This document shows, piece after piece, positions 16,913 through 19,821 of a stretch of 38,227 bases of DNA. Both the position numbers and the translations under genes were made by a program. The DNA comes from Flavobacteriales bacterium (GTDB lineage: Bacteria; Bacteroidota; Bacteroidia; Flavobacteriales; BACL11), in NCBI GenBank assembly GCA_018647945.1, contig JABGSE010000017.1, positions 1-38,227 of the forward strand, written 5' to 3'. The number at the start of each line of letters is the position of its first letter. The stretch's first letter is position 1. The notes under the pieces are model-generated. The model was not told where the DNA came from. It ran no database searches and was given only the letters and a program-made list of their open reading frames with translations.

Positions 16913-17677
16913 ATGAAACTTTATTCAAAAATATATGGTGATAAAGCACAGGATTTAATAATAATTCATGGATTGTTTGGCATGAGTGATAATTGGAATT
17001 CCCTTGGAAAACAATTTTCAAAATATTGCAAAGTACATTTGATAGATTTAAGGAACCATGGTAGATCTCCACATGCTGAAGATTTTAATTATGAGGTAAT
17101 GTCTGAGGATGTTTTGGAATATATGGAGGGTCGTAATATTCAAAAACCAATACTATTAGGACATTCCTTAGGTGGTAAAGTGGCTATGAAATTTGCTTTT
17201 ACATATCCTAAAAAAATAGAAAAATTAATAGTTGCAGATATATCCCCTAGGGAATATAATAGTGATTTTTATAAAAAACTTTTGGCAACTTTATACAAAC
17301 TTCCTTTGGATGATTTTGATAAAAGAGAAGAAATTGACAGTGTGCTTTCTTCCACTTTTGAGGATAAAGGAATGCGCTTATTTCTTTTGAAAAACCTTTA
17401 TAGAAAGGAAAACAAGGACTTTGCTTGGCGTTTTAATATTGAAGTTCTTTTGGAGAAAGTAAGTAACATACAAGAAGCAGGCTTTATAAAAGGAGTTTGT
17501 GATGTTCCAACTCATTTTATAAGAGGAGGGAACTCAAATTATATAACAACAGAAGATGAATTAATTATAAATAAACATTTTTCTGACTTTAGTATTGCTA
17601 CTATTGAAGGAGCAGGACATTGGTTGCATGCAGATAATCCTGAACGCTTTTATGATGAGGTTATGGGGTTCTGTTAA
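16913..17677 (+). CDS. Alpha/beta-hydrolase, YbfF-like esterase
   Basis: A 254-residue cytoplasmic hydrolase. The oxyanion region is IIIHGLFGMSDNW, the nucleophile elbow is GHSLGG (about 83-88, Ser as nucleophile), an acidic residue lies in the lid/strand region, and the catalytic His is in GAGHWLHADNPERF near the C-terminus. The LRNHGRSPH segment is typical of YbfF-type esterases acting on acyl-CoA or short esters in vitro. It abuts pdxJ, a pairing common in Flavobacteriia, but a shared pathway is not established. The substrate is unknown. Confidence 0.88.
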   Translation: MKLYSKIYGDKAQDLIIIHGLFGMSDNWNSLGKQFSKYCKVHLIDLRNHGRSPHAEDFNYEVMSEDVLEYMEGRNIQKPILLGHSLGGKVAMKFAFTYPKKIEKLIVADISPREYNSDFYKKLLATLYKLPLDDFDKREEIDSVLSSTFEDKGMRLFLLKNLYRKENKDFAWRFNIEVLLEKVSNIQEAGFIKGVCDVPTHFIRGGNSNYITTEDELIINKHFSDFSIATIEGAGHWLHADNPERFYDEVMGFC

Positions 17678-17702
17678 TGTAAATCAAGCAAGAAATTTAG
17701 TA

Positions 17703-17738
17703 AAATCGGTTACGGTAGAGTAGTGGGGTATTTTAGGT
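17703..17738. repeat. 36-bp direct repeat, copy R1
   Basis: Matches R2 (18048-18083) at 34 of 36 positions; the shared core includes GTTACGGTAGAGTAGTGGGG. On the minus strand it reads KIPHYSTVTDF. The two copies are 345 bp apart, a multiple of three. Confidence 0.9.
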
Positions 17739-17773
17739 TGATCATTATATCTTTCACTACAATTTTTTTTTAG

Positions 17774-17781
17774 TAATTTTG
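17774..17781 (+). promoter_or_regulatory. Promoter of the 31-residue membrane protein
   Basis: TAATTTTG is an exact TAnnTTTG match, preceded by TTTC at 17752-17755 with 18-bp spacing, close to the TTTG -33 element. It ends 23 nt before the ATG at 17805 and is one of the better promoters in the window. Confidence 0.5.
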
Positions 17782-17804
17782 TAAATAATAAATAAGACAA
17801 TAAT

Positions 17805-17900
17805 ATGATATTTAATATTTGGTTAATTTCAACAATCATCGTCACAATCACGGTTGGAGGATTTATTTTAAAGTACCAAAAGAAAGAGAAGGTAAATTAA
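17805..17900 (+). CDS. Small single-TM protein, 31 residues
   Basis: The ORF encodes MIFNIWLISTIIVTITVGGF then ILKYQKKEKVN. Residues 2-22 form one hydrophobic helix, followed by a Lys-rich tail, predicting an N-out/C-in inner-membrane peptide. Support for a real gene is the well-placed promoter (17752-17781), an ATG start and a clear charge pattern. No family is recognised. It lies in the repeat island downstream of the hydrolase, and an unrelated 52-codon ORF runs antisense to it. Tiny membrane proteins of this kind are usually missed by gene finders. Only expression data would settle whether it is made. Confidence 0.45.
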   Translation: MIFNIWLISTIIVTITVGGFILKYQKKEKVN

Positions 17901-17941
17901 ATTGTTACTAATTTTATAGAACTAATCACCGGTTCTGTTAA
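17895..17941. repeat. Diverged 47-bp repeat, copy A
   Basis: Aligns without gaps to copy B (18347-18393) at 36 of 47 positions. On the minus strand it reads LTEPVISSIKLVTI followed by a TAA stop; copy B reads LTKPVITSIKMMSI and the same stop. Differences favour third and first codon positions and conservative substitutions. Confidence 0.6.
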
Positions 17942-18088
17942 AACCCTTTTTTGTTTAGTATAGTTATATTGATTCAATTGATTGGATGAAACTGTAATTG
18001 TGAATACTAGAATTTGTTCTGGTAAATCCAATTTTACCCTCTCCGACAAATCAGTTACGGTAGAGTAGTGGGGTATTTTAAGTAATAT
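17897..18088 (-). pseudogene. Open, protein-like frame after an amber stop; probable gene fragment
   Basis: Sixty-three codons on the minus strand continue in the same frame directly after the TAG (18089-18091) of the 80-codon ORF. They read ILLKIPHYSTVTDLSERVKL, DLPEQILVFTITVSSNQLNQ, YNYTKQKR, then VLTEPVISSIKLVTI and a TAA. The only likely start is a TTG at 18049, giving 50 residues. Composition looks like a real soluble protein, and its last 14 codons recur in diverged, conservatively substituted form at 18347-18393. It could be the 3' half of a gene broken by an amber mutation, a fused fragment, or a short gene with a TTG start. No family is recognised. Confidence 0.4.
18048..18083. repeat. 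36-bp direct repeat, copy R2
   Basis: Second copy of R1 (17703-17738), differing at two of 36 positions. On the minus strand it reads KIPHYSTVTDL, in the same frame as R1 and as the open frame that contains it. Confidence 0.9.
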
Positions 18089-18331
18089 CTATTCAGTTGG
18101 TTTGGTTACTTTGTAGTTAGTTTCTTGTAAACCACCAGGTCGATTCCACTTAACTTTCTTAATATTTTCAACTTCAGAGTGTTTAACACAGTACGTATTA
18201 ACAGATTCTTTATTTTTCAAGTTAAAGATTTCTTTATAATTCTCTTTTTCATACTTATGATGAGTAAGTTTTGTATCTATTATATTCCCACTAAATAGAA
18301 AAAATGATGTACTAAAAAGGATTTCTAACAT
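18089..18331 (-). CDS. Hypothetical 80-residue protein
   Basis: An 80-codon ORF beginning MLEILFSTSFFLFSGNIIDT, a hydrophobic segment that could be a signal peptide or anchor, followed by a polar, Lys/Glu-rich body and a C-terminal VKWNRPGGLQETNYKVTKP. No family is recognised. An exact -7 box, TAGTTTTG (18336-18343), lies 4 nt before the ATG, so transcription would be nearly leaderless. It ends in TAG, beyond which the same frame is open for 63 more codons, so it may be the front part of a longer broken gene. It follows DUF1569 on the same strand after 54 nt. Confidence 0.45.
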   Translation of the reverse strand: MLEILFSTSFFLFSGNIIDTKLTHHKYEKENYKEIFNLKNKESVNTYCVKHSEVENIKKVKWNRPGGLQETNYKVTKPTE

Positions 18332-18335
18332 ACCA

Positions 18336-18343
18336 CAAAACTA
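18336..18343 (-). promoter_or_regulatory. -7 box before the 80-residue ORF
   Basis: Minus-strand TAGTTTTG exactly matches TAnnTTTG and ends 4 nt before the ATG. No -33 element is visible. Copy B of the 47-bp repeat begins just upstream. Confidence 0.4.
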
Positions 18344-18346
18344 ATA

Positions 18347-18393
18347 AATTAAATCGACATCATTTTTATAGAAGTAATTACTGGTTTAGTTAA
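18347..18393. repeat. Diverged 47-bp repeat, copy B
   Basis: Partner of copy A (17895-17941), 36 of 47 positions identical. It overlaps the last codons and stop of the DUF1569 gene, but its minus-strand frame LTKPVITSIKMMSI-stop is a different frame, preceded by a TGA. Confidence 0.6.
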
Positions 18394-18844
18394 TCAAATC
18401 AAATTGATTAAAATGATGAGTAGTATGGTGAATAATAAGAAATTGAATTTTTTCACTTTCCATTTTACCATATATAGGATGATCTATTTCCCCTTCAAGA
18501 TCAATAAGGTTATTAAGTTTTTGAATTAGTACATCTTTTTCATAATCTAAATCTAAATTTTCATCAGATATTTTTAAAGATTTCACCATTGTCCTTAGAT
18601 TTCTTGGAGTTTTTAATGGACTTAGTTTTGATATGTATATTAGAAATAATTTCCCAATGGTAACACCAAAATATTTATACCAGAATGGGACTGTGATTTT
18701 TCCTAAATATAAATCTATAGATTTTGAACAATGTTTTACCATTTGAGATGAGTTCATCTTCCCCCATTGTCCCACAGACTCTTTTTCAAGAAAATTTAGT
18801 TTTTCAATCAGTTTTTCAATACTTAATAATGATTTATCACTCAT
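18386..18844 (-). CDS. DUF1569 protein, DinB-like fold
   Basis: A 152-residue soluble four-helix-bundle protein. The N-terminal pattern ESVGQWGKMNSSQMVKHCSK and the C-terminal HPIYGKM and HHTTHHFNQFDLI match DUF1569, a branch of the DinB/YfiT superfamily. Three histidines (in MVKHC and the HHTTHH block) are placed to bind one divalent metal. Members of the superfamily include thiol-dependent transferases, but no substrate is known for this branch. It follows the PqqB-like gene by 38 nt on the same strand and may be part of its transcript. Confidence 0.8.
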   Translation of the reverse strand: MSDKSLLSIEKLIEKLNFLEKESVGQWGKMNSSQMVKHCSKSIDLYLGKITVPFWYKYFGVTIGKLFLIYISKLSPLKTPRNLRTMVKSLKISDENLDLDYEKDVLIQKLNNLIDLEGEIDHPIYGKMESEKIQFLIIHHTTHHFNQFDLIN

Positions 18845-18882
18845 TTTACGTTTCTTGTAAATACTGAATATGTAGTTTGGTT

Positions 18883-19821
18883 TTAGAATCTTATTATTTG
18901 CCCTTCTTTCGCCAAATTAAATCCTTTTTCTAAAACTTCTTTCTGAGCAGAGCTTCCTTCTATTAATAAAGGATTAGTATGGTTAAAGTGAATAAAATGT
19001 ACCTTTTGTTTGTCGGCATCAGAGAGCGTAGAAAAAAGTTCCATACTTTCTTCTACAAAAGGATGAGTGATTTCATTCATATTTCTTTTTAATTCTCCGT
19101 TTTTATAAAAGGTAGCGTCCAGAAAAGCGTAATCTACTTTTTGTATAAGTTCACTTATATTCGTTTCCCATTTCCCCCATTTGTCAATATCCGGAATAAA
19201 AATTAAGGATTTGTTATTTATCGTAATCTCATAACCAACGGTTTCCGAAAATTCATCTCTATGCGGAACCAAAAAAGGTTTTACTTTTATGTTCTCGTTC
19301 AAACTAAAAGTAGAGTCCGATTTTAGTTTTTGTAAACTGATGTTTTCTAATTCCACCAATTGGCTCCATGGCCCATTTTCTTCCAAAAAACTTGTCATTT
19401 TTGGCATGGCAAAAACAGGAATTTTATTTGTTCCCATTACTTCTCTTCCAAAATGCATGAGTCCTGTATAATGACCCATATGGGCATGAGTCAGAAGTAC
19501 CCCATCCACCTTTTCTGTGCCCGTTTTACTTTTTAATACTTGCAATTGCTCTTTTATATTTGGAGTAGCATCTATAATCCATTGCTCATTTGTTGTTGGA
19601 TCAACTATTGCAAGGCAAGAAGTATTTCTTTGTAATGCAGGATTATTCCAAGCTGCTTTACAACAATCTTTTTTGCAATTCATCTGAGGATATCCTGCAT
19701 CTTGAGCCACTCCCAAAACCATTACAAAAGGAGAGTTTGGAAGTTCTTCCACAGTTGTAGCTTCTTCTTGAGAATTACATGCAAAAAGAAATACAACACT
19801 TATTAATAGTATATTTTTCAT
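18883..19821 (-). CDS. PqqB-like metallo-beta-lactamase-fold lipoprotein
   Basis: A 312-residue hydrolase-fold protein. The N-terminus ends in a lipobox, LFAC (C15), with NSQEEATT after it, so it is a membrane-anchored lipoprotein. Residues 36-56 (LGVAQDAGYPQMNCKKDCCK) match the PqqB opening, with cysteines C49, C53 and C54. The metal motif is THAHMGH (H112, H114, H117); a later His (VPHRDE), D in IFIPDIDKW and HFNHTN complete the fold. PqqB itself acts in pyrroloquinoline quinone synthesis and is cytoplasmic, so this exported version probably has another substrate. Its ATG overlaps the GNAT stop (ATGA). Fold confident; reaction unknown. Confidence 0.85.
   Translation of the reverse strand: MKNILLISVVFLFACNSQEEATTVEELPNSPFVMVLGVAQDAGYPQMNCKKDCCKAAWNNPALQRNTSCLAIVDPTTNEQWIIDATPNIKEQLQVLKSKTGTEKVDGVLLTHAHMGHYTGLMHFGREVMGTNKIPVFAMPKMTSFLEENGPWSQLVELENISLQKLKSDSTFSLNENIKVKPFLVPHRDEFSETVGYEITINNKSLIFIPDIDKWGKWETNISELIQKVDYAFLDATFYKNGELKRNMNEITHPFVEESMELFSTLSDADKQKVHFIHFNHTNPLLIEGSSAQKEVLEKGFNLAKEGQIIRF

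Follow-up and report, generated by a model that had tools for sequence, protein, structure and literature searches.

The open frame behind the amber stop of a small gene in a Flavobacteriales genome is most likely the leftover integrase tail of a mobile element and not the lost half of that gene. The window, that is, the whole stretch of 38,227 nucleotides analysed here (contig JABGSE010000017.1 of assembly GCA_018647945.1), contains on its minus strand an 80-codon ORF that ends in TAG. With a probability of roughly 0.84, this TAG genuinely terminates a complete 80-aa gene and is followed by an attachment core and then by a fossil C-terminal half (C-half) derived from elements with a self-splitting integrase. 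On inserting at the end of glmS, marine bacterial elements of this kind seem to divide their own integrase gene. The features of the region are:

18386 to 18844, minus strand: DUF1569 gene, a recurrent cargo of glmS arrays.
18345 to 18393, minus strand: likely remnant of another integrase tail, reading LTKPVITSIKMMSI and then a stop (78% identical to 17893-17941; frame read by eye).
18089 to 18331, minus strand: complete 80-aa gene with a TAG stop, cargo of the first array unit.
18048 to 18083, plus strand: core 1, a 36-nt direct repeat with the glmS-end sequence (KSVTVE, stop); strict core at 18051-18064.
17739 to 18083, no strand: 345-bp unit, absent at the same locus in G033:C58 and G002:C8 (empty site).
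17897 to 18067, minus strand: fossil C-terminal half of a serine integrase (short-tail type), YSTVTDLSERVK...SSIKLVTI, ended by TAA.
17805 to 17900, plus strand: 31-codon ORF inside the inserted unit, possibly a small membrane peptide (unproven).
17703 to 17738, plus strand: core 2, in which the 36-nt repeat recurs 345 bp away from core 1.
17689 to 17722, plus strand: duplicate of the final ~34 nt of glmS, separate from the glmS gene itself.
16913 to 17677, plus strand: alpha/beta hydrolase gene, with the displaced glmS end in its 3' flank.

Read from high to low coordinates, the piece runs from the tail remnant at 18345-18393 and the 80-aa cargo gene through core 1, the C-half with the small ORF, and core 2 to the glmS end.

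The preliminary description had placed the 80-codon ORF at 18089-18331 with its TAG at 18089-18091, and had found the same frame open for 63 more codons (ILLKIPHYSTVTDLSERVKLDLPEQILVFTITVSSNQLNQYNYTKQKRVLTEPVISSIKLVTI) up to a TAA ending at 17897; both are confirmed. It was also right to call the continuation unusual and unlikely to be open by chance, since only 82 of 20,000 base-shuffled versions of it remain open over 62 codons. In the window, at least 62 open codons follow the stop in 6 of 52 ORFs (six-frame, at least 80 codons), a count that includes the continuation's ORF and shadow ORFs. The suspicion that the continuation derives from a protein holds as well: it shares 74% identity over ~57 aa with an 81-aa ORF of G057, at dS 0.47 versus dN 0.13. 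The open frame, its protein-like composition and the few open shuffles all speak for one of the explanations then offered, a single 144-codon gene broken by a recent nonsense mutation.

The relatives of the 80-aa gene argue against this. They are present in 21 of the genomes in a set of 149 relatives searched and gave 25 matches, of which two secondary ones (L035, L036) were dropped, leaving 23 loci to be read with the window included. The TAG stands at the same codon in 7 of the 23, spread over the genera g1, g6, g8 and g11 and one paralogue; 5 end within a few codons of its position, 8 extend into different C-termini (7 NCIKDNYMSK-type, ~188 aa, and 1 MORN-type), and 3 are frameshifted or run off a contig. 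The STVTDLSERV of the continuation follows in none of the 22 other loci. In addition, the 345-bp stretch that holds the continuation is missing from the one-core relatives G033 and G002, which tells directly against the two parts having formed one gene. With dN/dS of 0.05/0.33 against G002 and 0.17/0.84 against the paralogue on contig C46, the 80-aa ORF is, to judge from its sequence, a complete gene under purifying selection with TAG as its normal stop, and a recently broken 144-codon gene is almost certainly the wrong explanation.

The 80-aa protein has no match in Pfam or NCBIfam up to E 0.1. At eight loci (L018, L019, L021-L025 and L033) its first 76 residues head longer proteins with other C-termini (NCIKDNYMSK, MORN), as if an N-terminal module had been swapped. 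At L180 5412-5744 (G002:C8), a deletion of ~50 nt fuses the end of DUF1569 and the 80-aa ORF into one frame.

The continuation has relatives of its own: a translated search found them behind glmS-end cores elsewhere, where they are the C-terminal halves of serine integrases. The closest is the G057 ORF (G057:C16), which lies in an array beside glmS; the short-tail type also occurs in G070 and G117, with 9 of the 296 genomes sampled from the order having it. Longer relatives have an HTH resembling that of Recombinase (PF07508) and recur within one array between glmS and an S41 protease gene (e.g. G033:C14, G015:C1), in which the cargo consists of MORN, DUF1569 and 80-aa-type genes. The tail type in the window is short and has no HTH. 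We considered whether it was an HTH ORF with an internal deletion and dropped this idea, as G057 and G117 show that the short-tail type is common to several genomes. As a separate observation, the interval from glmS to the S41 protease gene is, throughout the family, a hotspot for cargo (L095-L104). The predicted structure of the C-half is strand, HTH, strand (mean pLDDT 68.5, HTH blocks mostly >85); a PDB fold search with this model gave no match at E <= 0.001, a C-half of the G015 type matched nothing in plasmid and phage collections, and a search with the short-tail peptide found no complete short-tail integrase in viral contigs.

The point at which the relatives begin is the core, which consists of the last glmS codons (KSVTVE, stop; antisense YSTVTD) and at which the continuation also starts. 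After removal of near-identical ones, 24 C-half matches, L134 among them, are at least 300 nt long and have room upstream; of these, 19 have the core motif with at most one mismatch, 15 at the first matched codons and 4 up to 40 nt upstream, although a match start at the core is partly by construction because the C-half queries begin with core residues. The five without the motif are L075, L078, one match in L089 (STVVNC), one of three in L114, and L135, where the core is reversed. On sequence grounds, the window appears to hold a fossil, what is left of a large serine integrase's C-terminal half. A separate gene started by the TTG at 18049, which the preliminary description had also proposed, fares poorly. 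The dS and dN values to G057 do indicate coding constraint in the history of the stretch, but the conserved part starts upstream of this TTG, at the core, and the copy in G051 is not open in one frame; we give such a gene very little chance.

In the window's genome (G000), glmS itself lies on contig C46 and ends at C46:22109 in PRNLAKSVTVE and a stop, tail to tail with the 80-aa paralogue. The sequence AAATCNGTTACNGTAGAGTA occurs without mismatch at three places in the genome, namely core 1, core 2 and glmS. Other origins of the repeat were rejected: ATCAACCTAAAATACCCC is no large repeat family, with exact copies at two places in the genome; the window is without tRNA; and there is no Rfam match up to E 1 in 17500-18900.

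An intact form of the integrase was found on L134, an IMG/VR contig of 7404 bp with 77-bp identical ends, i.e. a circle of 7327 bp. Its integrase, a large serine enzyme of 733 aa, has PF00239, PF07508 and PF13408 (Zn ribbon) above cut-offs. The HTH ORF makes up the last ~130 residues of this protein. Within the gene lies the core (NYSTVTDF), surrounded by an 11-nt inverted repeat (4 of 1000 flank shuffles). In related serine integrases (L135 3546-3600; L231; G227) the core points the other way, and in L135 it is flanked by a 14-nt inverted repeat (0 of 1000 shuffles). Searches of viral contigs with the C-half, the full integrase and an alignment gave only 2 relatives, one of them a circle with an antisense core.

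When the L134 integrase was used as the query against the 149 relatives, 24 matches in 18 genomes were split at the core. Five are N-terminal halves (query end 588-609), all of which abut glmS tail to tail, and 19 are C-halves (query start 557-638). Four of the five N-halves end in STVTD[FL]AKFLG and a stop, their last residues being antisense glmS. The fifth, in G037, leaves the core in another frame (NVGLKPTQQ), which is the frame in which a C-half of G010 continues (NVGLKPTQQSPTVFVSDN); 31 of 32 nt are identical left of the core and in it. There are thus at least two subtypes, each with matching halves. Five genes of the G059 element at glmS are collinear with the L134 circle as far as the core, and beyond it glmS stands where the circle has the C-half. 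A circle with the core inside the gene, together with N- and C-halves split at that core, suggests that integration splits the gene and swaps its tail.

An uninterrupted copy of the integrase was seen in none of the 16 genomes with matches among 395 genomes sampled from the order (at most 2 places scored per genome; the sample overlaps the first set of 149). A class-wide search yielded 14 matches in 395 genomes, 2 at glmS (G671, G346) and 12 without a glmS end. G671, of the same class and outside the order sets, has an N-half that ends within glmS in YSTVTDFAKFLG and a stop, and the N-half of G346 enters glmS in another frame. Altogether, N-halves lie at glmS in seven genomes besides the window's, and five of them end in STVTD[FL]AKFLG and a stop. 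The window's genome itself gave no N-half match at 1e-20 or at 1e-30. No single contig carries both halves of one integrated element, five of the N-half contigs ending within a few kb; upstream of the N-half, ~56 kb of G671 and ~35 kb of G346 contain nothing resembling the long-type C-half below E 0.03. G346 also has a further core-like place with 2 mismatches at C3:36796.

The locus in the window can be compared with that of close relatives. G033:C58 is 98% identical to the window across the 797 nt that lead from the DUF1569 start to the core, and then continues directly into the hydrolase gene; G002:C8 has the same gene order, and both have a single core and lack the 345 bp. In the alignment, the single-core site corresponds to core 2 on its glmS side and to core 1 on its 80-aa side, from which it follows that the 345 bp were inserted at the core or, less simply, lost from it. 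These one-core relatives and the two cores of the window, like the split integrases and the circular form, can be read directly from the assembled DNA. The hydrolase is present in 42 genomes, for which 30 loci are given and 29 flanks are readable; among these flanks, a core with at most one mismatch follows it in G000, G002, G026 and G033, and a degenerate core in G042. The 3' flank of the hydrolase gene is a secondary site.

The DUF1569 and 80-aa block (window 18084-18844 versus L108 4215-4975) is 97.6% identical to that of G033, which belongs to another genus, whereas the flanks are 83% (hydrolase) and 84% (the gene on the other side) identical. Against G002, of the same genus, the block is ~84% identical, like its flanks. 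The high identity to G033 relative to the flanks indicates that the block itself was exchanged between lineages.

These arrangements suggest the following mechanism. Small Flavobacteriales elements would carry an integrase gene with the attachment site inside its coding sequence. The internal core would recombine with the 3' end of glmS, so that glmS is restored and the integrase gene is split: the N-terminal half with the catalytic domain would then abut glmS, ending mostly in ~10 codons of the antisense glmS strand, and the C-terminal half (with the HTH domain in the longer types) would be left behind the far core. Repeated insertion beside glmS would stack arrays of core, C-half and cargo. 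The window probably holds a two-unit piece of such an array, with a second unit of 345 bp, along with ~34 bp of glmS at the secondary site behind the hydrolase. Because these ~34 bp of glmS were carried along, exit from glmS would need another step (illegitimate or homologous recombination). We infer the action of the recombinase, the order of the insertions and the way in which the piece left glmS.

Copying ~34 bp of glmS goes beyond what site-specific recombination alone does, and could mean that the cores were copied by homologous recombination or by a transposon, that no integrase made the 345-bp difference, and that the C-half hitch-hiked. The location away from glmS and a genome without the catalytic integrase half also favor this alternative, and the exchange of a block between genera fits homologous recombination. 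However, the breakpoints of the 345-bp difference fall at the core, exactly the point that splits integrase genes in other genomes, and we regard copied cores as unlikely compared with integrase-made insertion.

Readthrough of the TAG, also raised in the preliminary description, would give an extended protein whose integrase C-half tail varies by genome. All 3 loci with a C-half immediately after the 80-aa gene have it in phase past the TAG (the window, G003 and G010; 18089-18331 of the window, L106 2-583 and L102 3237-3800), with 63 open codons in the window, 80 in G010 and at least 113, to the contig end, in G003. In relatives, moreover, this N-terminal part is continued into different C-termini with no stop in between. 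A phase match between continuation and 80-aa gene at a single locus has a chance of 1 in 3, and at three loci the in-phase placing arises by chance at 1/27. Since the spacing from TAG to core and the tail type differ among the three loci, and the four remaining same-stop copies (of 7), which lack a C-half downstream, stay open for only 31, 3, 19 and 3 codons, we keep chance as the likelier cause. This particular extension is carried by none of the 22 other loci, and readthrough is very improbable, though it, or tails having fused at a later stage, could also account for the shared phase.

Starting from the self-splitting integrase as the preferred reading, we tentatively consider a protein switch, which we think possible but doubtful. 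The 733-aa enzyme made from the circle, with its C-terminal HTH domain, would integrate; insertion would take this domain away and leave a differently active catalytic N-half whose tail comes from antisense glmS; and the C-half footprints would serve as a reservoir of tails, from which new integrase tails and, via readthrough or fusion, tails of cargo genes might be drawn.

Tn7 targets the 3' end of glmS, and Tn7-like transposons have tnsABC genes and terminal inverted repeats. In contrast to Tn7, the glmS codons themselves are the recombined core here and the enzyme is a serine integrase. Integrases with an attachment site in their own gene are already known (Mx8, rumA ICEs, archaeal SSV), and the glmS system is a further variant. 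In archaeal SSV-type suicidal integrases, as a review describes them, integration splits the gene into Int(N) and Int(C) (PMC8371274). These are tyrosine recombinases with the catalytic domain in Int(C), whereas the glmS integrases are bacterial serine enzymes whose catalytic N-half stays a long ORF. In the glmS system the attachment site lies inside the integrase gene, as in L134, and the forms seen at glmS have the gene split; the L134 integrase is not a tyrosine recombinase, Pfam giving serine recombinase domains.

In that review, recombinases that disrupt their own gene are called exclusively archaeal (PMC8371274), a statement that Mx8 Int and the rumA ICE serine integrases contradict (PMC6070905, PMC4701971). 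In Mx8, attP lies within the int gene; a short C-terminal part takes the place of a long one, and activity differs between the two forms (PMC6070905 and PMC4701971). Mx8 Int is a phage tyrosine integrase with a different target, and the glmS elements have a serine integrase. In the streptococcal rumA ICEs, which have a single serine integrase, the attachment site is inside the integrase gene, and integration exchanges the 3' ends and alters the C-terminus (PMC4701971). The rumA ICEs and the glmS elements are alike in an attachment site within a serine integrase gene and in an altered C-terminus. They differ in that the target of the glmS elements is glmS read antisense, ~130 residues with the HTH are replaced by ~10, and C-half footprints remain in arrays; conjugation families are absent from the 8 other L134 ORFs scanned (two 52-aa ORFs were left out). 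Given the bacterial precedents of Mx8 Int and the rumA ICE integrases, the glmS system is not new in kind. The titles and abstract starts searched, a set in which subscription papers are mostly not represented, contain no description of a self-splitting serine integrase at glmS.

The proposed system would account for the antisense glmS-end ORFs (STVTDFAKFLG) and for the copies of the glmS end in intergenic arrays of marine Flavobacteriales, and it would give a marker for a mobile system in small genomes. Few integrases that cut their own gene are known, and the glmS system would join them as a serine-integrase case whose proposed protein switch can be tested. Along with Mx8 and the rumA ICEs, it is evidence against confinement of such integrases to archaea.

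Two further places deserve mention. The integrase-tail copy in G051 (L105 3822-3975; G051:C1:206821-206974) is 83% identical over 155 columns, includes only part of the core, does not form one open frame, and lies behind an outer-membrane-type gene. At L109 2718-2952 (G000:C69:63217-63451), a 50-nt fragment of the DUF1569 3' end, a 46-aa ORF and the motif GATCAACCTAAAATACCCC occur together between two unrelated genes.
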